From: Diphasiastrum complanatum | Lineage: Eukaryota > Streptophyta > Lycopodiopsida > Lycopodiales > Lycopodiaceae | Direction: 5' to 3' | DNA length: 64,000 nucleotides | Assembly: GCA_029204225.1 (NCBI GenBank) | Contig: CM055100.1 | Location: 24,063,106 to 24,127,105, forward strand | In this document: in pieces, positions 22,548 to 50,658 of the stretch | How the letters are laid out: every line of letters begins with the position of its first letter | Position numbering within the stretch: position 1 is the first letter of the stretch | Notes under the pieces: model-generated | Seen by the model: the letters and a program-made list of their open reading frames with translations, nothing else | What the model was told of the DNA's origin: nothing | The model's database searches: none | Translations under genes and position numbers: made by a program

Positions 22548-22602
22548 CCTCTCCCTTAAAGTAGAGTCTACTTTTTATACAGTCATATACATAGCTTTAA
22601 AG

Positions 22603-25600: not shown

Positions 25601-25871
25601 AATTTTGATCAGTAATGACTCCAACAGAAAGTAGATTTTTCTTCAAACCTGGTACGTAAAGTACCTCCCTGATCATCCTGCTTTTGCCATCAGGTAGTTG
25701 GATTGAAACGGTGCCTATCCCCTTGATCTTGCACACCTCACCATTTGCTTGTGAAACAGATGTTCCATTATCCAACACCTTCAAACTATTGAACCAATTC
25801 TTGTTACCTGTCATGTGTCTTGTGGCTCCCGAGTCAATATACCATGCTTGATTATCTTGATTAGATGACAA
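22603..25871 (-). pseudogene. Copia pol: protease, integrase, RT, RNase H (broken)
   Basis: Read leftwards: protease AWYIDSGATRHMTG (about 25840), GAG-pre-integrase LWHKRLGHLN and CESCVYGKQH (about 25440-25310), integrase core with LIHIDLCGPM, RSDSGGEYK and NGVAERKN (about 25230-24940), RT fingers IGCKWVYRTKYHADGS (about 23990), RT catalytic YVDD (about 23545), KHIEIQYHFIRE and the RNase H end ADIFTKPLTG (about 22670). Breaks: TAA at about 25078 after LVEN, a 1-base loss near 25010 just after NNFND, and TGA at 23824-23826 where copia proteins have Trp, just before LHQMDVKSAFLNG. Otherwise the frames are long (393 and 405 codons), so decay is limited. Confidence 0.9.
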
Positions 25872-25899
25872 TGCAGATATGAAGATTCTAGAGTCTTCA

Positions 25900-26739
25900 A
25901 TCTCACCCTCATCGACAAGATTACCTGCTTGTTTTGGTTTTCCCTTGCCTTGTTCCGCCAGGAATTTGCAACATTCACTCTTTCAATGGCCCTTTTTACC
26001 ACAATGAAGGCACTTGCCTTTCTTCTTAGTTTTACTAGAAGATCCCTCATCCTCCTGAGACTTGGCAAATTGCTGCTTAGACTTCTTCTTGCCCTTGCCC
26101 TTGCCTTGTTTTTGGCGTGTCGCAAGTGCTTGATCGTCAGTATTTTGATGTCTAGCTTTAACCATTTCTCATCGTTGCTCTTCTTGCATCAAGATTCCTG
26201 TGAGCTGGTCAAAGGTTGGCAATTTTTCTCTTGATGCTATTCCGCTCACAAACATCTGATAGGGTTCTGCAATGCCGCACAATGCATTGTGCACTAGCTC
26301 CACATCACGTATGCGCTCACCAATAGAATGCAGTTCATCTCTCATTGTCTTGATTCTGGTCGTGTATGTCTGAATGTGCTCTCCTTGCTCCATGCGGGCA
26401 CTATTCAGCTTTAACTTTAGAAACATGATTCTTGACGGATTCGACGTCTCGAACTGCTCCTTTAGCACATCCCATGCCTGTCTAGGTGTCACAGCATCAC
26501 AAATGTGGGTAATGATGTGATCCTTCACTGACAAGTTAATGAAGGTCAAAGCTTTCCTCATCTTTTTGTCGAATACTTTGATATTGGCTTCATTTGGCGG
26601 CCTTCTCTCATCACTTGTGACAACTTCTCACACGTCTTTCTCCATCAGTATGTTTTTCATTTGAATTCCACACTGCATAGTTGAAAATCCCGTCCAATTT
26701 GCTACTTTCACTCAAAATGGACTCTCCCATGTTTGCCAT
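25900..26739 (-). pseudogene. Copia gag with zinc knuckle (broken)
   Basis: The start codon is probably the minus-strand ATG at 26739 (MANMGES). The UBN2 gag core lies at about 26561-26169 (AWDVLKEQFETSNPSR, IKTMRDELHSIGE). A Lys-rich linker precedes the CCHC zinc knuckle, which reads CLHCGKKGH, stop, KSEC at about 26007-25968. TGA codons at 26628-26630, 26169-26171 and 25983-25985 replace probable Trp codons; the last lies inside the zinc knuckle. A frame change near the N-terminus (WNSNEK region) also occurs. Confidence 0.85.
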
Positions 26740-28037
26740 CGCAAAACTGCTTGAAACTTTTGTCTTAGGCTAAGAACAGTATGCCGAGGCCAACAGTGAT
26801 GTCAGAAGTTGAAAATAATGACCTGCACTTTTTCCCTCACCAGGCCACTTGCTGCTTTTCCACCAATTTGAAAGCCAAATCGGCGTCGTCTTCCGAAATG
26901 CACTCAGTCGTCAACTCCCAACACCGTGCCCAGTGGAATGGTGAAATCACTTCTGGTGTACTCCGAACACTTTCTCCGCTGCAATCACTCTGTTTTGTTG
27001 TACCGTACTTGTAGGTATAGTCCGGGTGCCCTTCGTTTGGAGGTTATAGCCTTTCGTTTGGGTCAAAATGGGCAAAGGACCCAAAAATAGGGACTTTTCT
27101 AGTTTTTGAACTGTTTCTTCACCTTGAAGAAACTTCACTCTTCACTTGTGAAGGGACCCAACTCAACTTTCAATATGAAAATTTTTAATGAAGTTGAAGG
27201 CCAGAATGCACTTCACTTCTTCAAGGCCCTGTTCAAAGCCCATCCAATGGCTGAACCAAATCTTGTGGTCCACGTTTCTCTCCCATCACAAGTTCTAGAC
27301 CATCAATGCATCTGACACCTCATCCAAAGGTCCAAACTGCATATGGGCGTTGAACCACACTCCTATAATCGCTATGGCCTTCCAGACGCTACGCTCTCAC
27401 CCTGGTTCCATGCGCGAACTGCCCGTGACCTCCCTATCTGCGGCCGCGCCTCCCCACACTGAAATTTTCTTGATCTAATTCGCCTGTGGATCAATTTGAG
27501 CACGATCTGAGGCCTGGAGCAGAGTCGCCCTACTAATTCCAAGACTGTAGAGTGTTCACTTAGGAAATTCCGTGGAGAAATGGTGATTTTAGCTCAACTT
27601 GACAAAGTGGCTTTTTTCACCTTTTTACCGCAAATCTGCTAGGTTAACTGTCTGGAGACAAATCTCTGACATAAACCTCAGAATCTCTCCATGCTGGTTG
27701 ACAATGTGATTAGCTTCCTTCCTGTCCTCACGGCATCCAAAACGGTGCACAAACAGCGAAGAAATCACCAGTTATGTATAAAAATCGTAACCCCAAGCCC
27801 GGTTTCAATTTTTAGCTGGCTTCAAAATTGTCAAATTTTCACCAAATTTTTCCCTGTCTGATGCTATGCACATGCTAATAATCCCGCTGTTGAGCTTAGC
27901 AAGCCTCTATAAACTAGAAACCGTGCACTAGTGCTTCTCTTTCCGTCTTCAACCCGCAGTAAACCCTGAACTCTCAGAAGACAATTATCTCGAAGCTCTC
28001 TTCAATGGCGATGTTGTACTGTGTACACTCCTTGTAC
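26740..28037 (-). other. Copia 5' leader
   Basis: About 1.3 kb between the PBS and gag with no long frame. Part of it (about 26990-27100) is homologous to 63300-63470 on the plus strand, which therefore comes from a related element. Confidence 0.7.
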
Positions 28038-28050
28038 GGCTCTGATACCA
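28038..28050 (-). other. Primer-binding site (tRNA-Met initiator)
   Basis: The minus strand reads TGGTATCAGAGCC directly after the 5' LTR end AATTCTAAGT. Confidence 0.92.
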
Positions 28051-28324
28051 ACTTAGAATTTGCTTTGCACAGGAACACAGATCATTCTACATAGTAACAC
28101 AGACAGAAAACACTCTCCACAGAAAGCTCACATAGCAACTGTATTTCTCAAAAATGAAATTACACTATACATATAGTTGTTCACTCAGGCAACCCATGCA
28201 TGACCTAGGTTGCCGTTGGCGGGATGCGTGTCCCGTCGACTTGCCTCGTGGCGAGGCCAACTGATCCTTATCCACTGATAGGACCCACAGTACAGTAACA
28301 CAGTGATTCTACTTTAATTCTAAC
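28051..28324 (-). repeat. 5' LTR of the copia element (274 bp)
   Basis: Homologous over its whole length to 22275-22547. It is followed on the right by the second TTCAAC target duplication (28325-28330). Confidence 0.9.
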
Positions 28325-32709: not shown

Positions 32710-33130
32710 TGTCACGGGAGCGCGTGCGTGGGACTGATTCGTGTTTGTCCTCACTTCGTCTTCTTTTATCGCAAACAATTTTTTGTCTTTTAATTTTCTT
32801 TTGTGCTGAAGCCCTTACAGGATCTCAGACACTCGACTACGCATCACAAAACATATTCTATTCTAGCAATCATGATATACAACACAAGACAAAACGCATG
32901 AAAATAGAGTGACTGAATTATCAATTTTAGTTTAGAGTGAATTTGTCAGTGTCACGCTCGTTGGCAGAATGACATTCAACTCTTTTGTTGTGTTCTGCTC
33001 ATTGGCAGACTTTCATGCACAACTATGGTGTCATTTCTTTCTTACTCTATTCGCTACGTCTCTCTCTGTCTCTTATAGATCTCTGTATTCTCTTCTTATA
33101 TTATGATCCAGAGAGGATCGTTTCTACCTC
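32710..33130 (-). repeat. 3' LTR of the copia composite (left copy)
   Basis: It starts TGTCACGGGAGCGCG on the plus strand and is homologous to the segment from 42996. Because both copies are followed by the same pol-end sequence, the inner boundary cannot be set by comparison; 33130 is an estimate. Confidence 0.7.
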
Positions 33131-33220
33131 CACTATGTGGAGTTTACAAGATAGCTAAACATAGAATCACATTGCTAGTTAATGCTAATCAACTAGTTAG
33201 TTAGTCTATGTCATTGCTAC

Positions 33221-35685
33221 TCATTTCAGCTGGGCGTGAAGCCCGTTGAACTGCCAACTGGCAGCGCGAAAGATTTTTCTTTGTCTGTTTTGTAATCTCC
33301 CGTTTGCTTTCGTTCTTTTTGTAGTTTTCGTTTCGAATCGTTCGTGCTTCGAGTCAAAGTCATGCTGACTGTCATGAATTGTTCGACCTTCGTGTCTTGT
33401 TCGTGCTGCGACAAAGTTGTAGGAGTTCACCATTTCTGACACTCCCTCTTGAACCTTGCAGCTTTGTTCATTTAATCTAATTGCCTCTCTTTGCTTGGTA
33501 AAGAGTGGCTTGTCGAGCAGTTTCGTGAGGAGATTGGCAATCATATTTTCTGATTTTATGAACTGGATCTGGAGCTCTCCTTTCGAGATCAAATCTCGAA
33601 TATGATGGTACTTCAGAGGAATGTGCTTCGTCTTTGAATGGAAGACAGGATCCTGGGACAGATAGATGGCACTTTCAGAGTCCATCATCATCGTGCTTGG
33701 CCCCCATTGTGGTATCCCGATTGCCTCCAACATCATTTACAGCCACACTACCTCATTCGCCACTTTTGAGACTGCGACATACTCAGCTTCGCAAGAGGAT
33801 TGAGCTACCAAGGTTTGCTTTTTGCATATCCAGCTGATTGCAGCTCCACACGCTATCGTACATCCTCCAGTAATGGACTTGTTGTCATCTTTGCAGCTCG
33901 CCCAGTTCGCATCACTATAGTGATGCAGCTCGAATCCTTTCTCTTCGTTTCTAGTTTTGTAGGTAAATCCAACATTCTGGGTACCCTTCAGATACTGTAG
34001 AATTTGTTTGGCCATTTTCCAATGTGCTAGACCAGGATTGGAACAAAATTGGCTCAATGCGTAAATAGAGAAAGCCAGATCGGGTCTGGTACAAATTGTT
34101 AAGTACATCAGACTACCGATTAAGTTTTGGTAGGGTATACCTGCCATCTTCTGTTTTTGGGTAATCGTATTTCGTGAGCTTGGCTCCAAATATCATTGGT
34201 GTGGCTTTCTCTTCACAGTCCATCATGTGGTACTGCTTTAGCACTCTTCTGGCATATTCTGACTGACTCAAGTGCATTTCACCATTTGTTCAATCTCTTC
34301 TGATCTCCAGTCCTAGGCATTTTGTTGCTTCTCCAAGATCTGTGATTTCATAGTTTTCAGAAATCTAACTCTTTGTGTCTTTGATCAACATCAAGGAATT
34401 TTCTATCATCAGCGAATCATCAACAAAAATGGTCAGTATCACAAAATCCTTTCCTACTCTTTTGATGTAGACATTACAGTCTGGTTGAGTAGGATTGAAG
34501 TCTAGAGACTTCAGAAGACCATCAAGTTTTTTGTACCAGGCTCGTGATGCCTGTTTTAGACCGTAGATGCACCTTTGCAATCGACAAACATATTGTCTGT
34601 TGTTGGGGTCTTCATAGTCTTCAGCTTGCTTCATGGAAATTTCCTTCTCTATGTGTCAAAATAGTCGACACCATATCTCTGCGTGTAGCCCTTCGCGACA
34701 AGCCTTGCTTTGTAACGGCCAATGGTGCCATCTGATTTCAGCTTCTTCTTGTACACCCATTTGCAGTCGACTACTTTTCTGTTTTCTAGCAGTGGCTCTA
34801 ATGTCCATGCCTCGTTTCGCCTCATCGACTCGATCTCTTCTGACATTGCCTATTTTTTAAATTTCTCTCTCTGGACTCTGGATAGCTTCTTGGTATGTAG
34901 CTGGCTCTTTTGTGAAACTGCAGTACTCAAACTGTGTGTCTTCGCTCCATTGAAGATTGTCAAAATAGCGGTTTGGAGGTCTTCTTTGTCTTGTTGACCT
35001 TCGAGGTTCGTTTCGTCGCTGCTCAAACATTTCTTGTTCGTGGGGTTGATCCTCTGCTTCCTGCTGCTCTGGAGTCTAGGGTCCTGCATTCTAATTTGAT
35101 GAATGTCCTCGATCTCCCTCTTGAATAGGCAGAAGTGTGAAGATCTCATGGCCTCTTTCGTCTTTCAGTCCAAGGAATGTGGACTCGTCGAACTTCACAT
35201 CTCTGCTCGAAACAACCTTCTTCGTGGTTGGATCGTAGAGTCTGTACACATGTGTTCCATTCGAGTAGCTGACCATGATTGTTTGCTCGGGTTTGACGTC
35301 GAGCTTGCTTCTCTTTTCTTTTGAAATGTGCTTGTATGTTGCACATTCAAACACTCGTGCGTATGACAGATCAGACTTTCTGCCTGTCCACATCTCGTAT
35401 GGTATTTCATTCTCCAGTGCTGTCGTTGTTGATCTGTTCTACAGATGTACTGCTGCAGCTATTGCTTCGGCCCAGAATTGGTCTGGCAATTGAGCTTGTG
35501 CCATCATGCATCTGGCTCCTTCGACTAGTGTTCTATTTTTTCTTTCTGCCACACCGTTGTATTCTGGTGTATATGCAAGAGTAAACTGGTGTTCAATCCC
35601 TTGTTCTTCGCAGAATCTTGAGAATTTTGTGCTTTTGTATTCACCTCCATTGTCAGATCTAAGGATCTGTATCCTTTTTGAGGTG
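33221..35685 (-). pseudogene. Copia integrase C-part, RT and RNase H (broken)
   Basis: Read leftwards from the gag-only insertion: IQILRSDNGGEYKS and NGVAERKNRTLVEGAR (integrase), [20 protein letters not shown] (RT fingers, about 34760), then an abrupt loss of roughly 60 residues of the RT palm between YFDT and the MKQAEDYE region (about 34650), CIYGLKQASRAWYKKLDG, IFVDDSLMI (RT catalytic, about 34420), YLTICTRPDLAF, RNase H with AEYVA, and KHIPLKYHHIRDLI. The tail ends in LNGLHAQLK-like sequence at about 33225. Stops lie near 35436 and 33737-33739; the second is a CAA in the other copy of this region. Confidence 0.85.
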
Positions 35686-35690
35686 TGTTG
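35686..35690. other. Target-site duplication TGTTG (left)
   Basis: TGTTG before the left LTR recurs at 41263-41267 after the right LTR. The target lies in the integrase coding region of the minus-strand copia element. Confidence 0.93.
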
Positions 35691-36337
35691 TGTGAAAATT
35701 GTCAACATTTCCTTGTCTAGTTTTAGGCCAAAATTGCTAAAAATGGCACATAGTTTAGGATCTGACTTTTCACACGTGTGAAACAGGTCTAGATATTTTT
35801 AGTAAGTGTATTTTTTCAGTATGAAGAAGTGTCAAACTTCAAGACCTTCGAAATGAGTCCATTTTCATGTATTTTGGACATATATGCCAATTTTACCTAT
35901 ATAGGGCATATTTTAGGTAAGGAGGGTCTAGAGAGAGGAGAGAGAGTCATCTCTCTCAGCTATATATAGCAGGTAGGCCGTGGAGAAACAGGTTGGAGCA
36001 GATCCATTGTATTCATTTGCTTAATGAGAGATTTTTCTATTGGGTTCTCCTTCCATTGTTGGCATTGTGTAGTGATTGAGTTCAAGCTTTGTGTGTATGA
36101 TCTTAGGTGCTTTCCAAAAGTGATAGGCTGATGTATTATGGACTGTATAATGCTATTTTGGGCCGCACTTGATGTTTATGGAAGTTTCCATTTGTGATAA
36201 ATGCTTTTTGATCAAGTTCTTTGCATTCTAGGTAGCATAGAATGTGTTGCCAATTCCTAGCTTATGTAGTTTGGAGTGCAAGCATTCAAGCCAATGATCT
36301 TGGAGTTTAGATCCACTTAGGATCTGTATTTTTCACA
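35691..36337 (+). repeat. 5' LTR of the gag-only element (647 bp)
   Basis: It starts TGTGAAAATTG and ends TTTTTCACA. It contains a palindrome TTTCACACGTGTGAAA (35768-35783), a GA-rich block with the hairpin AGAGAGTCATCTCTCT, and a TATATATA box at 35961-35968 that probably drives transcription. By eye it differs from the right LTR only at GGGCATATTTT followed by AG versus CA (with one more base shift-free match afterwards). Confidence 0.95.
35768..35783. promoter_or_regulatory. LTR palindrome TTTCACACGTGTGAAA
   Basis: A perfect 16-bp palindrome with an ACACGTGT core (G-box/ABRE type, a bZIP or bHLH site), about 190 bp upstream of the LTR TATA box. It is repeated exactly at 40693-40708 in the other LTR and at 52231-52246 in an old relative. 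Confidence 0.7.
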
Positions 36338-36348
36338 TGGTATCAGAT
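36338..36348 (+). other. Primer-binding site (tRNA-Met initiator)
   Basis: TGGTATCAGAT directly follows the LTR end CACA. The first ten bases fit the initiator tRNA-Met 3' end, as in the copia elements nearby. Confidence 0.88.
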
Positions 36349-37509
36349 CTGGTTGGCTTCTATTTACAGTAAGTATTCCATTTTTGGTGATATTTGGATG
36401 TTTGATCAAGTTCTAGCATGATTTTGCATTGCTTTGTTGATCAAATCTTACTAACCTTTGTTTTGTGAGTTGAACTTGTGGATCAAAAGCATATTTCAGG
36501 TCTATTGAAGATCAGAGGCTGAAAAGAAACTATTTTGGATCAGATCATAACACCTAATCATTTGTGATTGTGAGGCTTGTGCATATTCAATACTAACAAT
36601 GTTCTTTTCAATCCTATTGTTGACAATCTCCATTCTTGGATGAACACTCTCCTTAAGTGGATGAAACTTCTCCTTAAGTGGATGACAAATGCTCTTTTGA
36701 GTGAGTTGTAATTCTCCTAAAGGCTGAGCAAAGCTCCCATTTGGATGAAAGATCCCCTTTTTTGGGTGAACATATTGTAAGCTCCATTGTGAAGAGCATA
36801 TTGTAAAGATTGTCATCAATTTTGGCATAAATTTTGGTGTACTTTGTTGAGCATGTAAGTAACTCTCCTTATGTAATTTGATTGGAGCATTTGCTGGAAG
36901 GTGTTAACCATTATGCAAGTGTGTTTTCAGGTTCTTAACAGGTTGAGGAACATTCTCATGTGAAGTGATCTTAGATCTACATCTAAACACCAAGATTTGA
37001 CAAGATAGTGAAGCTAGTCTTGTGATTCACTAAGTGTGCTCATTCATTCACCTCTAAATCTTGTATTTATCACTTGCTGGAGTTTATAAACTTTTAGAAG
37101 TGTGGTTTACATGTGGTTTTACAGGTTGAATCAATATCTTAGTGTGTTGATCATATGTTGATCAAGTTTGTTCATTACTAGGTAATCTTGGCATCCTAGT
37201 TTTGGGTATTTTCTAAGAATGCAAGTAACTCTTCACACCATAACTTGATTTGGTCACTTGCTGGAAAGTTTGAGAGCTTAAGCAAGAGTGTGTTCAGGTT
37301 GGTTTGATTTTGTAATCCATTCTTAGTGTGTGCAAAGTGTTGCATGTGTTTCAATCTTCCTTTCTATGCTTGGAAACCATCTAGGTTCAAGATAGAAGTG
37401 TTTTAGGGTCCTAAATCTTCATAGATTTCTTTATCTATCATTTGTTGAGAGAAAAGTGAGTGCTAAGTGCTTTAGGACAGAACCTAAAAGTTGAAGAAAC
37501 ATTAGAATC
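36349..37509 (+). other. Leader of the gag-only element with internal repeats
   Basis: 1.16 kb without a long plus-strand frame. Three imperfect repeats share the words AAGTAACTCT, TTGATTGG or TTGATTTGG, CACTTGCTGGA or ATTTGCTGGAA and TTCAGGTT or TACAGGTT (about 36852-36945, 37065-37130 and 37216-37303). CTCCTTAAGTGGATGA is repeated in tandem near 36648-36685. Packaging or dimerisation signals are possible but not shown. Confidence 0.6.
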
Positions 37510-40500
37510 ATGGCTTCCAATGGTGGGATCATGCTAGAGTCTAGTGAAAGGTTGAGTTCATCAAACTACTCTACTTGGAAAGTGAGGATGGAGTCCTTAC
37601 TTGAGTTGAATGAACTCATGGACATAGTTGCAGAAATTGAAGAGAGACCTCTCACACTTCAAGAGCAACAAAGGTTTGATAAGAAGGCCAAAAGGGCTCT
37701 TCATATCATTAAAATGAATGTTACAAATGAACTTCTCAAGGAAGTTGGAAAGTGTCAAAGTGCAAGTGAGGCATGGAATGCCTTAAAGAAGCTCTTTGAA
37801 TCAAAGTCCACATCTAGGGTATTGACCCTAAGGAGACAAATATTTTCTAGTAGGCAAAGAGAGGGTGAAAGTGCTCATGCATTTATCTTGAGAGTTAAGT
37901 CCCTAAGTGATGATTTAGCATGCATTGATGAGAACATAAAAGATGGTGAAATAGTCCAAGTTATGTTGAATGGTTTGCTAAATGAACATGCTAACCTTGT
38001 GCAAAGTTTTGCCATTCAAAGAGTCTTGCCAAGTGTGGTTGACTTGCAAGAAATCTTATTGGCTGAAGAACATAGGTTGCAATCAAAGCTTGATGGTGCA
38101 TCCTTGCAAGGTGGAGGTGAAGAGGCTTTCTTCACAAAAGGCAAATTCAAGGGCAAAGGTAAAGGCAAAGGGAAATGGTCCAAAGGTGGTAACTTTGATC
38201 ATGATGATCACTCTTCCTCTTCCTCTTCTACTAAGAACAATAAGTCAAAGTTCAAGTGCTTTTATTGTGGGATAAAAGGACATTTTGCAAATGAATGCCA
38301 TAAGAAACAAAATGCTAGATCTAGGTTGAGATCTAATGTACTTCTTGGAGATGATAATTGTTGTGCTAACTTGGCAAGCTTTGGTGAATCTATGGTCAAT
38401 TTTTTGGATCCATTGGATCTTGAAGATGCACTAGTGTTACCTACTAGTCATATGGAGTCATGTGGAGCTAAATTAGCATCATGTTTGTACTCTTCTACTC
38501 ATGGACTTCCAAGGCTTGTTGGTTCTTCAATGGTGCTAGATGGCAAGTGCAAAAATGGAAAAGGTAAGGAAGGAGCTAACTTCATCAATGGAGTTGATGA
38601 AGATTCTTCTTTGGAAGTGATTGTTGCTAATGACTTGTTTGTTCATATGGAAAAAGATGGAGATGCTAAGTGTCATTCTTTGCAAGAAGATGGTTGTTCT
38701 TCTAATTCTTTTCATATTGATGTATGTAATCATGTGGGAAAAGATGATGGTGCTTTGAGCATGCTTGAAGGAAATGGTTCTTTTACATCTTTTTGTGATA
38801 AAGTCATTTGTGCAACAAGTGGTGTCACATTTCTTCATAAAAAGAGTAGATCAAAGGTTTCTATCATGAGACTTGGTGAGGGAGATCACAAGTCAAAAGG
38901 AAGAGAAGTATGTGAAGTGTTCAAAGTAGGATGTACTTTGAATGATGTTTTTATGAACGATAGTGAGGAAGAATCATTATCATATGACTCATTACCTAAA
39001 TCATTGAGTAGAAGTTCATGTTTGAAAAGAGAGAGTACTTCAATCACTCTTATGTTGAAGGTACTAAGGATTCTTTTCTTGGCTTCTAATATTCAAGAGT
39101 CTTCTACTTCTTATGGTGCAACTATCAAGAGGGAGGTTTCTAACTTTTGTGGTGCTAGCATTAAGAGGGAGTCTTGTGAAGGAAAGGGCAATGGAAGAGT
39201 GGTTCTTGGGAAGATCCAAAGCATGGATCTAACATCTCTTCATCAACTCAAAGCATTCTATGATTGTGGTGGATTGTTCATTCATGGTCAAGATGGCAAA
39301 AGGTTGGTTGAAGAAGACTACATGGAGCAACTCAAGTGGCAACTTCTTCAAGGCAAGGGAGATATCATTGGTGAGCTTATTGAGGTTTGTTATGAACTCA
39401 AGAGGGCTGTTTTGATTAGGTTTGATACTCATCTTCACCTACTCTACTTCATGTTAAATGGAAATGTTGGAATCTATCTTTTGGTTTATGATGGTGGCAT
39501 TGTTTTCACTAACTATAGTGAAGGGTCAAATTTGAGCATTGATGAGATCTTGTGGGATCTTAATCATGTGTTTGAGAGGGAGTATCTTCAGAGTTTCAGA
39601 TCTGAAGATGTTCACATATGCAATATCTTTGATGTCTTATTGGAAGATCAAGAGGTTGATCTTGGATTGCTTCATCAACACCAAGAGACAAGTGGCAATT
39701 CGAAGCTAGTGAAAAGCATCAAAGAAGAGACAAATGGTCAAGGCATTTTGGATCTGTTTTTACAGGTTCTTGAAGGTTCAAGTAAGGTCTTTGGAGCTGC
39801 AAGGAAGTGTCTTCTTACTCTACCTCACTTGCCTAATCTCATGTATGAACATTGTTATGTCAATGTGTTGAAATTGTCAAATTTCAATAAAACTAGTTCC
39901 ATAGTTTTGCATCCTTTGGATCTTGGAGATGGAATAGTTATCATTGCTGGTTTGTATGATCAAGTACATGAATTCATTCAGATCTTGAAAGGTATTGAAG
40001 TGGTCAATATGTTTTCTTTTGAACAAAGTTCAAGATCTAGTATTCTAGTGTTGGCAAATTGGCAACTTGTTGACATTGTAGGATCAAGCGTTGTGTGCAA
40101 ATCTTGTGGAGGTACTTCAAGTATTTCAAGTTCAGGTTTTGGTCATTCAAATGGAGTAGGGAACACATCTTTTTGGCATTCATTCACTCAAAGGCTTTCA
40201 TGGATTGAAGATCTACAAAGGCAAGGTGGTGATGGAAGTTCATTCATGGAGATACATGTTGCATTCACTATATGTATAGTGAAATGTGGAGGAGGCATGC
40301 AAACACTTGTTGATCACTTTCATTTACAACTTGTTTGCTGCTATTTTACAGAGAAACCAGAGATGGATACATGGAGGAATTCATTAATTGAGATTCTATG
40401 TTCTTTTACATGTACCATTTTTATGATTCTATGTAAAATTGATGTAAGAAATAGTGAAGCATCCTATATGGACACTATTATCTATATCAATTATGTTGTG

Positions 40501-40602
40501 TCCTATTTTGTACATATTAGGATCCTTGAGAAGAGATCTATTCTGATGATGGAGATCATTCTTAAGTTGGAACAAAGTAGTGTTGTAAAACTAGCAAGTT
40601 AA
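37510..40602 (+). CDS. Gag-tail protein of the gag-only element, 1030 aa, intact
   Basis: The start codon has a strong context (ATCATGG). Residues 1-200 are a copia-type gag (DUF4219/UBN2): SSNYSTWKVRMESLLE, AWNALKKLFESKSTSRVLTL, EGESAHAFILRVKSLSDDLA. A Lys/Gly-rich basic linker follows at about 210-240, then the CCHC knuckle CFYCGIKGHFANEC at 250-263. From 264 to 1030 I recognise no domain: no DSG protease, HHCC or DDE integrase, or YVDD. That region has low-complexity Ser/Asp stretches, then hydrophobic segments (for example around 945-980) and ends EKRSILMMEIILKLE....VVKLAS. The frame has no stop in 3.09 kb, unlike every other TE protein here. The first part probably forms the particle and binds RNA. 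The tail's role is unknown; captured host sequence or a structural spacer are possible. Confidence 0.9.
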   Translation: MASNGGIMLESSERLSSSNYSTWKVRMESLLELNELMDIVAEIEERPLTLQEQQRFDKKAKRALHIIKMNVTNELLKEVGKCQSASEAWNALKKLFESKSTSRVLTLRRQIFSSRQREGESAHAFILRVKSLSDDLACIDENIKDGEIVQVMLNGLLNEHANLVQSFAIQRVLPSVVDLQEILLAEEHRLQSKLDGASLQGGGEEAFFTKGKFKGKGKGKGKWSKGGNFDHDDHSSSSSSTKNNKSKFKCFYCGIKGHFANECHKKQNARSRLRSNVLLGDDNCCANLASFGESMVNFLDPLDLEDALVLPTSHMESCGAKLASCLYSSTHGLPRLVGSSMVLDGKCKNGKGKEGANFINGVDEDSSLEVIVANDLFVHMEKDGDAKCHSLQEDGCSSNSFHIDVCNHVGKDDGALSMLEGNGSFTSFCDKVICATSGVTFLHKKSRSKVSIMRLGEGDHKSKGREVCEVFKVGCTLNDVFMNDSEEESLSYDSLPKSLSRSSCLKRESTSITLMLKVLRILFLASNIQESSTSYGATIKREVSNFCGASIKRESCEGKGNGRVVLGKIQSMDLTSLHQLKAFYDCGGLFIHGQDGKRLVEEDYMEQLKWQLLQGKGDIIGELIEVCYELKRAVLIRFDTHLHLLYFMLNGNVGIYLLVYDGGIVFTNYSEGSNLSIDEILWDLNHVFEREYLQSFRSEDVHICNIFDVLLEDQEVDLGLLHQHQETSGNSKLVKSIKEETNGQGILDLFLQVLEGSSKVFGAARKCLLTLPHLPNLMYEHCYVNVLKLSNFNKTSSIVLHPLDLGDGIVIIAGLYDQVHEFIQILKGIEVVNMFSFEQSSRSSILVLANWQLVDIVGSSVVCKSCGGTSSISSSGFGHSNGVGNTSFWHSFTQRLSWIEDLQRQGGDGSSFMEIHVAFTICIVKCGGGMQTLVDHFHLQLVCCYFTEKPEMDTWRNSLIEILCSFTCTIFMILCKIDVRNSEASYMDTIIYINYVVSYFVHIRILEKRSILMMEIILKLEQSSVVKLAS

Positions 40603-40615
40603 GTTGAAGAGGGAG
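40603..40615 (+). other. Polypurine tract
   Basis: GTTGAAGAGGGAG lies between the stop codon and the 3' LTR. It is the start site of plus-strand DNA synthesis. Only 13 bases separate the stop codon from the LTR. Confidence 0.85.
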
Positions 40616-41262
40616 TGTGAAAATTGTCAACATTTCCTTGTCTAGTTTTAGGCCAAAATTGCTAAAAATGGCACATAGTTTAGGATCTGACTTTTCACAC
40701 GTGTGAAACAGGTCTAGATATTTTTAGTAAGTGTATTTTTTCAGTATGAAGAAGTGTCAAACTTCAAGACCTTCGAAATGAGTCCATTTTCATGTATTTT
40801 GGACATATATGCCAATTTTACCTATATAGGGCATATTTTCAGTAAGGAGGGTCTAGAGAGAGGAGAGAGAGTCATCTCTCTCAGCTATATATAGCAGGTA
40901 GGCCGTGGAGAAACAGGTTGGAGCAGATCCATTGTATTCATTTGCTTAATGAGAGATTTTTCTATTGGGTTCTCCTTCCATTGTTGGCATTGTGTAGTGA
41001 TTGAGTTCAAGCTTTGTGTGTATGATCTTAGGTGCTTTCCAAAAGTGATAGGCTGATGTATTATGGACTGTATAATGCTATTTTGGGCCGCACTTGATGT
41101 TTATGGAAGTTTCCATTTGTGATAAATGCTTTTTGATCAAGTTCTTTGCATTCTAGGTAGCATAGAATGTGTTGCCAATTCCTAGCTTATGTAGTTTGGA
41201 GTGCAAGCATTCAAGCCAATGATCTTGGAGTTTAGATCCACTTAGGATCTGTATTTTTCACA
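40616..41262 (+). repeat. 3' LTR of the gag-only element (647 bp)
   Basis: Same length as the 5' LTR and almost identical to it. It is followed by TGTTG (41263-41267), the second target duplication. Confidence 0.95.
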
Positions 41263-41267
41263 TGTTG

Positions 41268-42180
41268 CTATGCGAATGCCACGACCTTCTTGAAAGAATC
41301 AAATACTTCGGATTTCTTCTTCAAGTAGTAGATCATGGTCATTCGACTATAATCATCTATGAACATTAGAAAATATTTCAAACCTAAGAGCGAATTTGTT
41401 TTCATCGGTCCACACACATCAGAGTGGACAAGCTTAAGAACTTCCTTGGCTCTTCGTCCTTCGTGTGTAAATAAATTCTCATGTTGCTTGCCTTTCTGAC
41501 AAGCTTCGCAGATGTCAGCCTCGGGCCTTGATATTTTGAGACCTGTGACAATGTCCTTTGTGCTCATGTCGTACAGGCTCCGCATATTCAGATAATACAA
41601 TCTCCTATGCCAGAGCTGATCTTCGTTTTTTGAAGCATTTAATATGCTATCAGAGTTGCTGATTATTTTGGCCTGGTAGAGGTTTCCTTCTCTGCATCCG
41701 ACCGTCAACAACTTGTTTGTCATCTTCTCGATCATACGACAAGTGTTGCCATCGAACAAAACTCGAATGCCTAGATTTGCCATCTTGGAAACAGATAGCA
41801 GATCTTTTCTGAGTGAGGGCACATAGAGTGCTCCTGGCATCTCTACTTGGCCTGACAGTGTTCGTAGCTGTAGAGATCCGATGCCTTTGACATCGTGTCT
41901 GCTTCCATTGCCTAGAATCACCGCTCTGTTGTTTTCGAGTTCGCGAAAGTTGATCAAGACGTTTGTTGCAGGTTATGTGAGATGTTTCTCCTAAATCGAT
42001 GACCACATCGTAGTCATGTTCGGAGTAGCTTGTCGAAGCTTCGTCGAGTATCGTGAAAGCTTCATCTCCTCTTTCTGCATCTTTGGAAGATTCTGCAACG
42101 TTTGCTTTTTCAGCTTTGTTTTTTCTTTTTGGGTTGAATCTGCAGTCGTATGCAGAATGCTCTTTCTTCTTGCAGTGCAT
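41268..42180 (-). pseudogene. Copia protease and integrase N-part (broken)
   Basis: Continuation of the minus-strand copia element right of the gag-only insertion. Protease motif VVIDLGETSHIT: the catalytic DSG reads D-L-G here. A frameshift near 41950 separates it from INFRELENNRAVILGNGSRH and VPSLRKDLLSVSKMANLG. Then LWHRRLYYLNMRSL, CEACQKGKQHENLF and the integrase core KLVHSDVCGPMKT and FIDDYSRM. The frame ends at VVAFA where the gag-only element sits; integrase resumes at 35708 with IFTQHTSKRIQILRSD. Confidence 0.85.
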
Positions 42181-42930
42181 GCAAGGTATTGCTGGATTGA
42201 ACTAGCATTTGTTGGCTGTATGGCCTGGTTTGTGGCAGTGATCGTAGGAAGAAGATTGTTGATTCGAAAACCTCGTCTTCTTGAATCTTGGCTTGCTTTT
42301 GTTCTTCTTCTTGCCTTTCGTGAAGAGAGCCTTCTCTTGATCACTGCTTTGCTCTCCTTCATCTCTCATTAGTTTCTCATCAGTGACAAGACTGACTGCT
42401 TTGTCGAATGTCATATCTGGTAGACTCAGTATGAGCATTCTCAGCGGCTGATAGGACGTCGGTAGAGATTTCATGAAGCACATCAGTTGCTGTGGTGCTG
42501 GGACCTGGTGCTCCTGTCCTGATGCAGCGAGTTGAGCGAAGATCGTTCTGATCTTCTCAACGTGCTGATCCAACTGGTTGCCATCCCACCATATTGATTG
42601 CAGCTCATTGTGAAGGTGCATGACTGAAGCTGCAGTCCTCACTTCATACTTCTGCTTTAATCTTTCCCATGCTGCATGGCTGCTTTCGCAGTCTTCAATC
42701 TGCATGAGAAGATCTTCATTTATGGACGAAATGATGATCGCCATTGCGTGCTCAACATTTCTAATCCATTCAGCTCTCCTCGGGTCTCTCTCTGGAGGTT
42801 GCACCTCTGAGAGCTCGGTCACCGACCAGATGCCTTCGCCCTTCAGGAGTGTTTTGATTTTGAATTTTCAGATTCTGTAATTTGCGCCATCGAGACTGAT
42901 TGCTACTCTGGACTGGATTGTCGTAGCCAT
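42181..42930 (-). pseudogene. Copia gag with zinc knuckle (broken)
   Basis: The probable start is the minus-strand ATG at 42930 (MATTIQSRVAISLDGANYRI), followed by a TGA at 42868-42870 where the gag family has Trp. The UBN2 core at 42822-42300 includes AAWERLKQKYEVRTAASVMH and CFMKSLPTSYQPLRMLILS. A basic linker and knuckle residues near 42230-42205 (DHCHKPGHTANKC) are followed by TAG at 42202-42204. A second Cys-His block, CMHCKKKEHSAYDC, follows in the next frame. Confidence 0.82.
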
Positions 42931-42995: not shown

Positions 42996-43425
42996 TATCG
43001 CGGGAGTGCGTGCGTGGGGCTGATTTGTGTTCACCCTCACTTCGTCTTCCTTTATCGCGAACAATTTTTTGTCTTTTAATTTTCTTTTGTGTTGAAGCCC
43101 TTACAGGATCCCAGACACTCGACTACGCATTACAAAACATATTCTGTTCTAGTAATCATGATATACAGCACAAGACAAGATGCAAAAAACTAGAGTGACT
43201 GAATTATCAGTTTTAGTTTAGAGTGCATTCGTCAGTGTCACGCTTGTTGGCGGAATGACATGCAACTCTTTCGCCGTGTTCTGCTCGTTAGCAGACTTTC
43301 ATGCACAGCTATGGTGTCATTTATTTCGTACTCTATTCGCTACATCTCTCTTTGTCTCTTATAAATCTCTGTATTCTCTTCTTACATTATGATCCAGAGA
43401 GGATCGTTTATACCTCCACTGTGTG
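42996..43425 (-). repeat. 5' LTR of the copia composite (right copy)
   Basis: Homologous to the LTR from 32710 across its length (shared AGGATC-CAGACACTCGACTACGCA and ATGATCCAGAGAGGATCGTT blocks). Its terminal CA has become TA here. The inner limit is estimated. Confidence 0.7.
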
Positions 43426-43504
43426 GAGTTTACAAGATAGCTAGACATAGAATCACATCGCTAGTTAACGCTAATCAACTAGTTAGTTATTCTATGTCAT
43501 TGCT

Positions 43505-44075
43505 ACTCGTTTCAGCTGGACGTGAAGCCTGTTGAGCTGCCAGTTGGCAGCGCGAAAGATTTTTCTTCGTCTGTTTCATAATCTCCCGTTTGCTTTCGTT
43601 CTTTTCATAGTTTTTGTTTCGCGTCCCTTTTTCGGCTTTGCGGTCCTGGAGGTGTGTTTGCGATTCACGAATGATTCACGAATCATTCGTGCTTCGAGTC
43701 AAAGTCATGTTGACTATCACAAATTGTTCGACCTTCGTGTCTTGTTCGTGTTGCAACAAAGTTGCAGGATTTCACCATTTCTGACACTTCTTCTTGAACC
43801 TTGCAGCTTTGTTTGTTTAATCCAATTGTCTCTCTTTGCTTGGTAAAGAGTGGCTTGTCAAGCGGTTTTGTGAGGAGATCTGCAATCATATTTTCTAATT
43901 TTATGAATTGGACCTAGAGCTCTCCTTTCAAGATTGAATCTTGAATATGATGGTACTTCAGAGGAATGTGCTTCATCTTTGAATGGAAGACAAGATCCTG
44001 GGAGTCCATCATCATCGTGCTTGGCCCCTCTTGTGGTATCCCGATTGCCTCCAACATCATTTGTAGCCACACTAC
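43505..44075 (-). pseudogene. Second, partial copy of the copia pol 3' end
   Basis: Homologous to 33221-33768, including IADLLTKPLDKPLFTKQRE, SCKVQEEVSEMVKS and ARTRHEGRT. It lies outside the 5' LTR and so belongs to a second element copy of the same family. It ends within RNase H at 44075, where gypsy sequence starts. The Gln codon that is TAA in the left copy is still CAA here (44063 region). Confidence 0.8.
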
Positions 44076-47000
44076 TCCAGATGATTCCGATATCTACATT
44101 CATATTTCTGATGAGCCTGACCTATCCTCTGAGCCTTCCACTGATTTACTTCCTGCTACTTGCCATGCTCAGCTTGCCTATGCTACTTGGACATGGCATC
44201 CTGGTCCTCGCTCCATTCGGTTATGTGTACGTATTACAGGTCGTGAGTATATTGCTTTAGTTGATACTGGCAGCACTCATTCTTTTATTAGCAGTTATAT
44301 CACTAGTCGGATCCGTGCTTCACCTGTTCCTGCTTCACAGCCTCTCATAGTTGAGGTTGCCAGTTCCCATTCTTTTCCTAGTTCTCACATGTTTCATCAT
44401 TTACCATACCGCATTGGAGATTTTTCTGGACTGGCAGATCTTTACATTATTCCTATGGAGCATTATGATCTTATCCTTGATGCTGATTGGTTTGCATCCC
44501 TTGGAGCCGTTACACTGGACTTGACACAGCAGACATTGACATTTGTACATGATGCAGTTACACACTCACTTATTGGCATTGATTCTCATGGAGACTTCTA
44601 GTTGATTACTGGGAAGCCGTTAATTCACAGCCTGCGAAGTTCATTGTGCAGTCTTATTATGTGTTCAGCGGGCAGCACCAGTTTCTACTCCAACAACTGT
44701 TCCTCAGGTGATCTTTGACTTATTACATCAGTATGCTTTTGTCTTTTCAGAAGGCTACGACGCTACCACCATTACGTGACGTGAACCATCATATTGACTT
44801 GCGTCCTGGTTCTGCTCCTCCTTCCCGTCCCCCTTATCATATGTCTCGATCTGAGCGTGATGAGCTTGAGCTCCATATTATTGCCTTGTTAGATCAGGGT
44901 CTCATTGTTCCTACTCACAGCCCTTTTTGTGCCCCTGTTCTCCTTGTTAGTAAGAAAGATGGTACCAAACGTCTTTGTATTGATTATCGTGCTTTAAATA
45001 AGTTGACTATTCGTAATCAGTACCCTATTCCACACATGGATGACCTCTTTGACTAGCTCGGTACCTCTAAAATCTTTTCCAAGATAGACCTTCATTCTGG
45101 ATATTACCAAATCAGGATGCACCCTTCTGACGAACATAAGACTGCTTTTCGTACTCATCTTGGTTTATATGAATTTTGTGTGCTTCCTTTTGGTGTTACT
45201 AATGGCCCTCCTACGTTCCAGAATGTGATGAATAACGTCATGCATCCACTTCTTGGTCATTGTGTCTTGGTTTATTTTGATGATATTCTTATTTTTAGTC
45301 AGTCTCTTGCTGAGCATGTTTCTCATCTTTCCTCTATATTTCAGTTACTTGTACATCACCAGTTATTTGCTAAGTTGTCTAGATGTTCTTTTGCTGTTTC
45401 TGAGATCGAGTTTCTTGGTTTTCTTGTTTGTAATGGACACATTTGTCTGGACCCTCATAAGGTTCAAGCCATCTAGGATTGGCCTATACCAACTAATATA
45501 CATCATGTTCGTATGTTCCTTGGGTTAGCCACTCACCTTCGTCGTCCAGTTTCTCATTTTGCCAGTATTGCAGTTCCTCTTCATGCACTTTTGAAGAAGT
45601 CTAGTACTTTTCTTTGGACTTCTAATTGTCAGTCAGCATTTGATACTCTTCATCATGCTGTTGTTGATGCTGCTGTTATGTGTTTACCACAGTTTGATCA
45701 GAAGTTTTGTGTTGAGACTGATGCTAGTAATGTTGGTTTGGGTGCTTTACTTCGCCAGTCACAATGTATTATTGCTTATGAGTCGCGTCGTCTTCGCTCT
45801 TATAAGCAACGTTATTCTGTGCATGAGAAAGAGCTTCTTGCTATTATCTATGCTCTTAAGAAGTGGCGTCATTATCTGTATTGAGTTCCATTTGACATTA
45901 TTACTGATCACTAGTCTTTACGTTATCTGTTTTCTCAATGTGACCTTAGTGATAATCAATTTCGTTGGTTGCAGTTTTTACAATCTTTTAATTTTTTCAT
46001 ATTGTATCATCCTGGTCGTGCTAACACTGCTGCTGATGCATTATCTCGTCTTCCAACTTTGTTGAATACACTCGTTTCTACTATTCCTCCATGGTTTGAT
46101 GATCTACCTGCAACATACCTTACATGTTCTGATTTTTGTGATGTTTATAGTTCTGTCCCACCTGTTTCGTCTCGTCCTCATCAGGTTTACTCCATTGTTG
46201 ACAATCGTCTTTATCGTTATGATTCTCTTTGTATTCCTAGTTCCTTGGGTATCCGTTCCCAATTGTTGTCGGATGCTCATTCCTCTCCTGTTGGGGGTCA
46301 CTTTGGTTTTCAGAAGTCTTATGCTCGTCTCAAAGACCATTTCTATTGTCCCTCTCTTCAATTTGAGCTTGTTGTACTTATTCGTACCTGCCCTTTTCGT
46401 CTTCGTAATAAGTACTCCCGTGTTAAATCTGCTGGTTTGCTCCAGAGTTGACCTATTCCTCATCGCCAGTGGACTGATATATCTATGGACTTTATCCTTG
46501 GCCTTCTCCATACCCAGCGTGGTCACGATTCATGTATGGTGGTAGTTGACAGGTTCTCGAAACAGGCACATTTTATACCAGTTCGCAGTACTATCAAGGC
46601 AGAGCAGTGTGCACTTTTGTTCCTATCAGAGGATTTTCGCCTGCACGGATTTCCTCGTACTATCCTTTCTGATCGGGATAGTAAGTTTCCATCTATATTC
46701 TGGATAGAGCTTATGCGTATATTGGATGCACAGCTTTTTATGGGTTCTACTTATCATTCTACTTCTGATGGGCAGTCTGAGGTCCTTAACAAGATCCTTG
46801 AGGATTATTTATGCCATTTTGTTACTCCTTCAAGGAAGGATTGGGATCAGCATTTATGTTTAGCAGAGTATAGCTATAATAGCTCTGTTAGTACCAGCTC
46901 AGGTGTCTCACCATTTTTATTATCTCATGGCTATGCACCTCTTTTACCTGGCATTCCTCTCCCTCCTGAGGATACACTTGTCACACTTGCATCTTTTCTA

Positions 47001-47560
47001 TCAGGTGTTCAAGAGCTTATTACCCGGGCCAGTTCTCATTTACAGCATGTTCAGCAGCGTTATCAGACCTTAGTTGATCGTCACCGCCGCCGTGTTGAGT
47101 TTCAGCTTGCAGATATGGTTTATCTACGCCTACGTTTTCACGTCATCATTTTGTCCAGGGCCATGTTTCTACCGAGAAGCTTGCACCATGTTATTATGGG
47201 CCTTATCACATTTTGGAGGTTCTTAGTCCAGTTAAATATTGCTTACAGCTTCTTGCTTCCACACGCGCCTGTGATGTATTCCATGTCAGTTTATTACGTG
47301 CTGCTATTAAGGATGACGCCCCTTGTGATGCTGAGTTTCCTACTGCTCCAGAGTTATTTCCATTTTTATCTGCTGCTATATTATAGGTTCGTCTATACCA
47401 TAGTTGACACCATCGGCAGATTAAGTTTTTGGTCCAATGGGATGGTCGTCCTATTGAGGAGGCCACATGGGAGCCTATTGATGTCTTTTATCATACACCA
47501 TCACTTGCGGATCAGGCTCGTGCTCTTGCTGCTCTACAACAGATGTTGTTCTAGCTGTTG
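44076..47560 (+). pseudogene. Ty3/gypsy pol: protease, RT, RNase H, integrase, chromodomain (broken)
   Basis: Retropepsin YIALVDTGSTHSFIS (about 44250-44290). [42 protein letters not shown], and catalytic YFDD at 45272-45283. RNase H: FCVETDASNVGLGALL, YSVHEKELLAI, ADALSRLP. Integrase: VVVDRFSKQAHFIP, SDRDSKFPS, STYHSTSDGQSEVLN, WDQHLCLAEYSYNSSV. Chromodomain: IKFLVQWDGRPIEEATWEP (about 47420-47475), placing it among chromoviruses. From 44715 to about 47130 one frame is kept with only point stops (45054, 45474, 45882, 45912 and 46449 regions). A frame change lies between protease and RT and another near 47140. Confidence 0.9.
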
Positions 47561-48742: not shown

Positions 48743-50650
48743 ATGGATTTCACTTAAAGAAACTTTCACAACTTGCTCCATAGGAGTTTCAATCCCTTTA
48801 CAATCTTTCATTCCAAACTTTTCTAATATGGAAGCAGCATATTTTAATTGACAAATGAAAGTAAAATCATTGCTTCTAGAGACTTCTATACCAAGTATGA
48901 AATTAAGAAGTCCTAGATCTACCATCTTGAATGTGAAAGTACTGTACTTTAGGACCATAAATGGATCTACAAAAGATCCACAAGAGTGATTGGATGCTTG
49001 TTTAACAATCTATCAAAAAACTAGTCATCAAAAAGTTGATCTAGATTGGCAATTTCAAACAACAAGCATTAACAATCAAAAGCATTGATCAACATTGAAA
49101 TCTGAGCCCACACATGTGTAATACAGGCTGTAGTACGGCCTTCAAGCTGAGAAATAAGTAGAAATTGATTTGGTTTCATTTGGATCACAAAAACTCAATG
49201 TACATAGTGAACTAGCTTGAGATTGCCAATGAGCTCCAAAAATATTCTATCTTCGCACTATGGGAGCTTGGAATACATAGCAAATTTGACTTCCTTCTTG
49301 AAGTTAGGTGGATTTCCAGCATGTAATAAGGAAGTTAACTCACTCTTCTTGCCCTAAAATGAAACCCTAGCCTAGATTGTAGGGTTATTTGCTACAAGCC
49401 TTTCTTTGTACTTATTAATGGATCCGTCTTGATTGTACTTCAATCTATAAATCCACTTAAAAAAAGTGGTTTCTTCTCATGTGGAAGATTTACAAGCTCC
49501 CAAGTTTGATTTTCCGTTAGCATCTTCCCAAGCTAATGACTTAATAGCATCTTCAAAATAAGATGGTTCTTCAAGCATAGTAGTCAAGAAAGTGTAGGAA
49601 GTGATAGGATTAGAATCTTCCCTTTGCTTGTCCTTCTCAGATATAGGTGAGCCTAGATGTCTCGACCTTGTGCCTTGTACATCTTCTTGGCCTTCTTGGA
49701 TCTTCAGATAGATCCTCAAAGTCTTTATCATCTTGAAGCTCCTCCTCGACCTTTGCAAGATTTTTGAAAATATGAGAGTTAGACAAGCTCTCATTCACTT
49801 TGGCATTGTGAGATTCATCAAAGAGAACATATCTACTTACCTTAACTTTCTTAGAGATAGGATCATAAATCCTATATCCCTTGCTACATTCCCTATAGCC
49901 AACAAAAATGCCTTTAAATGAAGTAGCATCTTCTTTCTTCCTTACTTCTAAAGGAATGTGGACATAACAAATACATCCAAAAACTTTCAAATCTTTTAGA
50001 TTTGGATTTTTGACATACAATTCTTCAAAGGGTGTGATTCCACCAATGGCACTATTAGAAGCCTATTACATAAACAATTGGCACAAGTAATGGCTTCTAC
50101 CCAAAATGAAATAGGTAGAGAGACACTAATATTAATGCTTTAGCACATTCGCATAAAGGTCTATTCTTTCTCTCGGCCACCCCATTTTGTTGGCAGGTGT
50201 AAGTACATGTGCCTCACAAAATCTCTCATTCTATTGGAGATGTACTCTCCTCCATTATCACATCTTAACACTTTGTTGCCAGCATTAAGTTGCTTTTCCA
50301 CAAGAGATGTAAACTTTACAAAGGAATCATACACTAAGCTTTTCTTACACAAAAGATAGATCCATGTGTCTTGTACAATCATCTATGAAGGTTACATACA
50401 TCAAAGCACCACTATTAGATTCATGTGAGAATGAATGTACATCTGAATGAATGTACATCTAAGTGAATAAGATCAAGAGGAGAGGTAGATCTATTCATAG
50501 ATCTCTTGAATGGTTGCTTATGTGTCTTGGATAGACCACAAGCTTCACAAAGCGTGCCACACTTGGATATGGATTTGGGAAGCCCGAATGCTAGCTCCTT
50601 GGAAATCATGGATAGTTAGGATGGTCTAACCTTCTGTGCCATAACTCCAC
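48719..50650 (-). pseudogene. Copia relic: pre-integrase, integrase, RT fragments
   Basis: Read leftwards: HVELWHRRLDHPN and CEACGLSKTHKQPF (50640-50520), LIHLDVHS, KVLRCDNGGEYISN (about 50270), VFGCICYVHIPLEVRKKEDA, GIFVGYRECSKGYRIYDP (about 49880), KWIYRLKYNQDGSINKYKER (RT fingers, about 49440), then FKMVDLGLLNFILGIEV and CQLKYAASILEKFGMKDCK (RT, 48930-48790). The middle of RT is replaced by an LTR-B fragment (48932-49372). Several stops and frame changes are present. It may represent the autonomous partner type of the gag-only family, but that is not shown. Confidence 0.75.
48932..49372 (-). repeat. Truncated family-B LTR (distal 440 bp) inside copia RT
   Basis: Nearly the same sequence as 50659-51108. 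On the minus strand it ends ...CAGTACTTTCACA at 48932, a proper LTR terminus. The promoter-proximal 260 bp of the LTR are missing. CACACATGTGT at 49110 replaces the palindrome. Confidence 0.7.
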
Positions 50651-50658
50651 GTGAGAAA

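Follow-up and report, generated by a model that had tools for sequence, protein, structure and literature searches.

How gag-only retrotransposons remain matched to their partners, and why some of them retain long open reading frames (ORFs), are open questions that both arise at positions 35691–41262 of the window, the 64,000-nucleotide stretch of Diphasiastrum complanatum DNA analysed here. An original prediction had described the element at this locus as a recent gag-only retrotransposon with an intact frame, whose long tail might be a new domain helping a non-autonomous element or else captured sequence. In our judgement it is very probably a young non-autonomous TR-GAG element of the Ty1/copia type, with enzymes supplied by a partner, a gag matched by recombination and a tail that is carried sequence.

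The whole element is 5572 bp long, and its parts can be read in the order LTR, PBS, leader, gag, tail, PPT, LTR. The forward-strand 5′ LTR (35691–36337, TGTGAA...TTCACA) and 3′ LTR (40616–41262) measure 647 bp each and mismatch only at 35915 and 35916, adjacent positions that possibly record one event. The target-site duplication TGTTG lies to the left (35686–35690) and right (41263–41267). The primer binding site (PBS, 36338–36355, forward strand), presumably of the initiator-Met type, carries a single G-to-T substitution that is absent from the 29 other fetched copies, and it opens a leader of 1172 nt with 17 ATG triplets (36338–37509, forward strand). A single ORF of 1030 aa (37510–40602, forward strand) follows, its stop lying 13 nt upstream of the 3′ LTR, and the polypurine tract (PPT, GAAGAGGGAG, 40606–40615, forward strand) adjoins that LTR. 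These features bear out the structure originally predicted, namely 647-bp LTRs with about two differences, the TGTTG duplication, the PBS, the PPT and an uninterrupted 3.09-kb frame. Scanning the window for Rfam families and tRNAs gave no match.

Codons 1–263 (37510–38298, forward strand) encode gag. Pfam assigned the ORF to Retrotran_gag_2 (1.1e-22), a copia-type gag; the matches to DUF4219 and to the zinc knuckle lay under their cut-offs, and sub-threshold matches to ubiquitin and KH were taken as chance. When the whole protein was searched against a protein database, three plant gag-pol proteins were found, covering 16–25% of the query. By period-3 mutual information, gag and leader could not be told apart. 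The LTRs, short target duplication, PBS and PPT are those of a Ty1/copia element, and, as in a TR-GAG element, the two LTRs flank one gag-encoding ORF in which no pol domain was found besides a 48-residue RT remnant that lacks the YVDD motif. The TR-GAG definition also includes a short element size, with an upper limit.

The 767 codons of the tail frame contain no stop, whereas the two alternative frames of the forward strand contain 36 and 82 and the three reverse-strand frames 44, 45 and 71, and in first-order Markov simulations (n = 2000) the stop-free run reached at most 192 codons. The contrast originally drawn with the broken frames of other transposable elements in the window seems fair, because the next-longest stop-free run there is 406 codons.

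At least 45 near-identical copies with an open frame are present in the genome. In all 45 copies scored, from 124592 first-look candidates, codons 1–1030 were matched at about 100% and contained no stop. The 30 copies fetched, including that of the window, occupy 29 distinct insertion sites as judged by the 3′ flank, which L015 and L016 share. Across a 328-bp part of the LTR, these 30 copies showed 17 mismatches in 9551 bases compared, and 19 of them showed none. At codon 705, the window copy has a residue unlike that of all 29 others. Judging from the 29 sites and the near-identical LTR parts, the element appears to be mobile though non-autonomous. It is recent, gag-only and non-autonomous with an intact long ORF, as had been proposed: Pfam finds only gag, the LTRs are near-identical and 45 copies are open. 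The window also holds a truncated relative from an older branch (52009–52530, reverse strand), comprising the last 64 tail codons, the PPT and the start of an LTR; this LTR part is 95% identical to the old copy L041 and 76% identical to the window element.

Which element could supply the missing enzymes? A junction pattern of the candidate partner gave 2108 exact matches in the genome, against 0 for the reversed control. Two of these loci (L068 and L069) were read out, and gag and leader were taken from L070. Both L068 and L069 can be translated as far as the pol end, through RT with its YVDD and through the RNase H motifs, and Pfam recognised pre-integrase, integrase and a complete RVT_2 in L068. 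Read in parts, including a small share of the protease, the three loci together contain gag and integrase as well as RT and RNase H motifs. The integrase-before-RT order was seen by Pfam in L068 and in the recombinant sister L061, the window element having no pol. Over 954 bp of leader and gag (37353–38306, the leader comparison beginning at 37353) the partner and the window element are 99.37% identical, whereas their LTRs are 80% identical over 308 bp. Therefore, gag was exchanged recently and set before an old, family-specific tail; the recombination boundary, the final base of detectable partner similarity past gag, lies at 38306. This RT- and integrase-bearing copia element is the likely partner, and we infer from the common gag and structure that it would mobilise the window element.

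Recombinants join a 5′ part of the partner, reaching half of RT, to a window-type tail at TACATGGAGCAAC. In the window this site is TACATGGAGCAACTCAAGTGG (39319–39339, forward strand), which opens with the short identity to partner RT (TACATGGAGCAAC) where the sub2 recombinant (L061) has its breakpoint. Up to the joint, L061 is 99.7–99.8% identical to L068 and L069 across 1522 bp; between its tail and that of the window, identity is 88.7%. L062 combines a partner-type 5′ part with a tail 99.4% identical to that of the window, and L066 has a sub2-like start followed by a window-type continuation. In the mechanism that we propose, one particle of near-identical Gag would pack both RNAs, and protease, integrase, RT and RNase H would come in trans from the partner. 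Template switching between the co-packaged RNAs would yield chimeras and keep the non-autonomous gag matched to that of the partner.

What, then, is the tail? In residues 264–1030, neither Pfam nor NCBIfam found a conserved domain. Searches of about 5.8 billion proteins, covering candidates that share short words with the tail (E up to 1 and E up to 10), gave no relative; sequence comparison with PDB chains gave no match, and viral and prokaryote contigs contained no relative. The AlphaFold model from the single sequence (pLDDT 31.8) was uninformative on the fold. The original prediction of a tail with no protease, integrase or RT motif agrees with the lack of a Pfam domain but not with residues 643–690 (39436–39579, forward strand), an RT palm remnant in which YVDD has become YDGG. 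The profile search that had been recommended missed it; direct comparison with the partner revealed it. Against partner RT, the remnant gave a Smith-Waterman score of 80, reached by none of 1000 shuffles, and the test was significant for the window tail only, since in sub2 and in the old copy L063 the score was reached by 33 and 26 of 1000 shuffles, respectively. An HMM built from four RT sequences scored window residues 560–1030 above all 400 shuffles, by just 2.7 bits, and scored sub2 from residue 925 within its shuffles. Comparison of the tail profile with unrelated RTs by hhalign gave 19.5, within controls (of 60 column shuffles, 7 or more scored as high). Residues 266–600 were not significantly similar to protease-integrase-RT (131 of 1000 shuffles as good). 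From the alignment to partner RT, we conclude that the tail holds a short dead RT remnant missed by profile search.

Outside the remnant, the proximal tail (38307–39318, forward strand) is family specific, with no homolog found outside the family, and the distal tail (39580–40602, forward strand) shows no detected relation to partner RT or RNase H except at the extreme end beside the PPT. That most of the tail is like nothing detectable in the partner would fit a captured host gene fragment, but the protein searches, among candidates sharing short words, returned no similar protein. The RT remnant and the common end beside the PPT place at least parts of the tail within the original pol region, and we find such a capture distinctly improbable. 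Most likely the tail serves not as a folded enzyme but as carried sequence through which the ORF extends to the element's 3′ end.

The window and sub2 tails, representing two mobile lineages, differ by 66 nonsynonymous and 19 synonymous changes, and singletons in dead copies comprise 162 and 47 (Fisher p = 1.0). The dead set comprised 15 of the 30 loci L031–L060, after leaving out duplicates (L038, L050, L052 and L053) and loci with coverage under 1050 of 1083 bases (L031, L032, L036, L039, L040, L042, L047, L048, L055, L056 and L059), plus L063, L064, L065 and L067; multi-hit codons were omitted (15 in old copies, 11 between the mobile tails). Between mobile lineages, the tail amino acids are thus under no constraint detectable in these alignments, although a moderate one is compatible with the 95% range of the odds ratio (0.55–1.85). 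The NG86 dN/dS of 0.64 between the two mobile tails (bootstrap 0.44–0.99, and 0.44–0.96 in a second run), taken alone, would suggest weak constraint. In the 30 young copies, 18 nonsynonymous and 14 synonymous tail changes gave a ratio below expectation (p = 0.05) and below that in dead copies (p = 0.015), but these young copies are a biased sample because they were ranked by protein score. Majority rule among old copies placed 72 of 85 single-change differences on the sub1 branch; we rejected this assignment, since sub1 falls outside the star formed by the old copies and is nearer partner RT.

The proposal of a new helper domain is not supported by these data, as amino acids in mobile tails change in proportion to those in dead copies and, within the 361 tail codons compared, the frame is broken by a stop or frameshift in 13 of the 15 old copies that could be used. 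A real but fast-evolving accessory protein, acting for example in packaging or anti-silencing, with positive and purifying selection cancelling on average, would account for 767 codons open in every scored copy, for an NG86 upper bound barely below 1 and for 110 differences between the mobile tails with no stop or frameshift. The ratio equal to that of dead copies, and the lack of any homolog or domain in the protein, PDB, Pfam and NCBIfam searches, make it unlikely.

Neutral filler, with open frames owed partly to chance and partly to the selection of cases, fits the neutral substitution ratio and the broken old copies, and the window element was indeed picked for openness and L061 for its long frame. 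L061, however, is typical of its burst, in which the 1347-codon frame occurs in 79 of 150 copies among the matches listed (hand count), and neutral evolution would leave 110 changes free of stops with a probability of about 0.005, indels not counted. Some independent insertions have an identical stop, which would suit filler, but recurrence is likely because no further variant is common to the entire group, and these stops do not by themselves establish that broken tails moved. Among the 19 old copies, any given tail stop occurs in at most 3, in a set whose stop counts are biased low because four of them (L063, L064, L065 and L067) were fetched for long frames; the source of the burst was therefore probably open too. 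We regard filler as possible, though rather less probable than otherwise. Of the neutral decay originally named as counter-evidence, the substitution ratio comes close to the signature, but the frame stays open in mobile lineages.

A further, doubtful reading is that selection holds the frame open whatever amino acids it encodes; what would matter is that translation runs through to the element's end, rather than the product. The likely reason would be escape from nonsense-mediated decay, because with a stop after gag the genomic RNA would have a 3′ UTR longer than 2 kb. A placeholder ORF that changes freely would then suffice, with recombination renewing the gag ahead of it. If this were true, a long intact transposon ORF need not be a functional protein, which bears on annotation. 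Because one genome contains a likely partner together with chimeras, dead copies and more than one burst, gag renewal by recombination becomes directly readable, and selection on the frame can be tested separately from selection on the protein.

Known systems offer partial parallels. The TR-GAG element AT5TE33540 of Arabidopsis ATCOPIA63 resembles the window element in having two LTRs, a single gag ORF, no reported pol, mobility and a related, potentially autonomous element in its own genome (PMC8704663). Its protein has 562 aa, versus 1030 aa with 767 residues beyond the zinc knuckle here; unlike it, the window element has a diverged LTR and tail, a gag that is nearly the partner's, and identified recombinants (PMC8704663). 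In the wheat RLG_Sabrina/RLG_WHAM system, Sabrina variants carry unique segments replacing gag-pro, and template switching or gene conversion is proposed for partner moves; Sabrina is of gypsy type, whereas the window element is of copia type (PMC9744471). In RLC_Angela pairs the LTRs group with each other and the coding part of the non-autonomous member has degenerated (PMC9744471); the window element instead has an intact frame and a gag matching that of its likely partner, from whose LTR its own differs by 20%. Additional ORFs of plant LTR retrotransposons are mostly located downstream of pol and before the 3′ LTR, in sense or antisense (PMC7264820, PMC11963269); like the tail, they are extra coding sequence of obscure origin near the 3′ LTR, but the tail is fused in frame to the gag of an element that lacks pol. 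Rous sarcoma virus faces the same decay and counters it by an RNA stability element located after its gag (PMC2925335); by analogy, a placeholder ORF would serve instead in the window element.

The element at 35691..41262 (+) has 647-bp 5' and 3' LTRs (35691-36337 and 40616-41262) with two differences, adjacent to each other, and is flanked on either side by the target site TGTTG, with a PBS directly after the 5' LTR, a PPT directly before the 3' LTR and a single ORF of 1030 residues (37510-40602); coordinates and sequence confirmed the original prediction on all these points. The expected gag-only coding content was also borne out, as gag was the sole domain recognised by Pfam in this protein. 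The tail frame (residues 264-1030, after gag and the zinc knuckle) contains 0 stops over 767 codons, compared with 36 to 82 in the remaining five frames and a longest stop-free run of 192 codons in 2000 Markov simulations. In the leader, from 36369 onwards, a GTAAGT occurs shortly downstream of the PBS, and the ATG is preceded by several pyrimidine-rich CAG sites, so that the 17 upstream ATGs of the leader might be removed by splicing.

The element is nested inside an older minus-strand copia, whose ORFs for a Retrotran_gag_2 gag and Pol_BBD/pre-integrase lie right of the insertion (41268-42822, minus strand). A second copia (22275-28324, minus strand) has 274-bp terminal repeats that are 95% identical and a gag-pol in several pieces, including RVT_2. 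Paired direct repeats surround the nest (32712-33751 and 42998-44075, 87-91% identical) and, since the latter is followed by a retroviral protease ORF (44080-44598) and a sub-threshold integrase-core ORF (46485-47558), they are perhaps the LTRs of a gypsy-type element. Further direct repeats (48930-49388 and 50657-51117) are 94% identical and 1.7 kb apart.

We searched the 1.74-Gb genome (5176 contigs), and all 45 protein-matching copies scored, the best of 124592 first-look candidates, span codons 1-1030 at ~100% identity without stops. Thirty of them, including the window copy, were fetched by rank of protein score, which biases the sample to young and intact copies. They represent 29 distinct sites; the flank, 838 bp long, is identical in two copies, which may be a single insertion that was duplicated or entered the assembly twice. 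When 328 bp of the 5' LTR were compared with the 3' LTR (33 bases only in one copy, and with gaps in two copies), 17 mismatches appeared in 9551 bases, with zero in 19 of the 30 copies. At a substitution rate of ~1.3e-8 per site per year, this would place the insertions of the order of 0.1 million years ago. The window copy and copy L008 are inserted at nearly the same place within related older elements, and a target preference is possible. The 3' flanks of these two copies (41263 onwards in the window) show 82% identity over 481 bp.

We reached a second subfamily, sub2, which is very abundant, through a 64-codon fragment of a truncated relative (52339-52530); an 80-bp direct repeat (52530-52607 and 52743-52822) begins exactly at the end of this tail fragment. 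L061, a sub2 copy that we selected because its frame is long, encodes 1342 residues in one ORF: gag as in the window element is followed by Pol_BBD, which represents the protease region, by integrase and by RVT_2 up to position 101 of 244, where the sequence switches, at YMEQ, to the same tail. With a 100-residue query across this joint, a 1347-codon frame was found in 79 of the 150 matches listed. The ordinary-RT joint pattern, YMEQP, has 2108 exact matches in the genome (reversed control, 0), of which we read two, L068 and L069, from a partner copia. Both extend from integrase through an RT with YVDD and motifs that we take to be RNase H to the PPT, with no stop until the end of pol, and for L068 Pfam recognised pre-integrase, integrase and RVT_2, the last of these complete. 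Up to the joint, L061 is 99.8% and 99.7% identical to L068 and L069, respectively, over 1522 bp. In the copy to which L068 belongs, gag and leader were read as a separate stretch, with ~300 bp (most of the protease) lying in between, and are 99.37% identical to window positions 37353-38306 (6 mismatches in 954 bp), and the similarity ends at 38306, immediately past the zinc knuckle. The partner LTR, compared in its first half over 308 bp, shows 80% identity to that of the window element; the LTR of an old copy, L041, reaches 72% over its length. The sequence thus shows that the window gag was recently exchanged in front of an old tail, and now adjoins a diverged tail and LTR.

Two other chimeras were found: L062 combines a partner-type 5' part with a tail 99.4% identical to that of the window element, and L066 has a sub2 start and, judging from translations, a window-type continuation ~30 codons further on, with its breakpoint inside the tail. 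The route of the gag exchange is one that we infer: such chimeras are known to arise when reverse transcriptase changes template between two RNAs packaged together. Alternatively, gene conversion may have made them, both processes having been proposed for LTR exchange in wheat (PMC9744471).

Tail residues 643-690 align with the partner RT palm (HSLYFRLNEND... with HLLYFMLNGNV...), with YDGG at the YVDD position, and 0 of 1000 shuffles scored equally high. At the DNA level, a colinear match covers 65 bp at 69% (E 5.6e-6; best E 0.002 among 60 codon-shuffled versions of nearly the same query), and a second DNA match lies at the extreme tail end including the PPT (E 7.8e-7). In the same protein test, 33 of 1000 shuffles scored as high for sub2 and 26 of 1000 for the older copy L063, so the RT remnant is clear in the window type only. 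No likeness to partner RT or RNase H was found at the protein level for the middle and end of the tail, and none to protease-integrase-RT was detected for residues 266-600. Several older copies carry tail residues ~460 to 1030 at 74-77% amino-acid identity, so the module predates the present bursts.

Between window and sub2 tails, NG86, which disregards transition bias, gave dN 0.102 and dS 0.160 (ratio 0.64, 0.44-0.99); the neutral N fraction predicted from the tail sequence is 0.72-0.77 for kappa 4.3-1.5. As a neutral standard we used singletons in dead copies (162 N/47 S, ratio 3.45). Single-change differences between the mobile tails gave 66 N/19 S (ratio 3.47; Fisher p=1.0; odds ratio 1.01, range 0.55-1.85), which makes strong amino-acid constraint unlikely, although moderate constraint may exist. 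Young copies, ranked by protein score, were opposite in direction (gag 4 N/8 S, tail 18 N/14 S). The reading frame behaves differently from the amino acids.

Over 361 codons, the mobile tails show 110 base differences and one in-frame indel, with 0 stops and 0 frameshifts. A random change in the tail sequence creates a stop in 4.7% of cases (kappa 2.3), and the probability of 0 stops in 110 is 0.005, although the window element and L061 were each picked for being open. The 15 usable old copies contain 23 stops and 20 frameshifts alongside 705 differences, and two are open. As the old copies branch in a star-like pattern, with mean distances of 54.6 within a set of 19, 51.1 to sub2 and 137.3 to the window type, and each stop is present in at most 3 of the 19, the source of the old burst was probably also open-framed. 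Against a frame that is kept open stand, besides the choice of open copies, three stops common to two or three independent insertions, although these stops come with no further variants common to the whole group. Most of the data fit both a tail that is neutral filler and a frame whose openness serves the RNA; a folded accessory domain is not supported.

From the structure and the shared gag we infer that the LTR would drive transcription, that the Gag-tail protein would be translated from the element RNA and co-assemble with the Gag of the partner, and that the partner would provide the enzymes. Among the literature matches listed (titles and abstract starts, incomplete in coverage), none described a gag-only element that carries a long tail in frame and preserves the frame but not the sequence of this tail. 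TR-GAG elements and partner systems as such are already known (PMC8704663, PMC9784723, PMC7765848, PMC11728184, PMC9744471).
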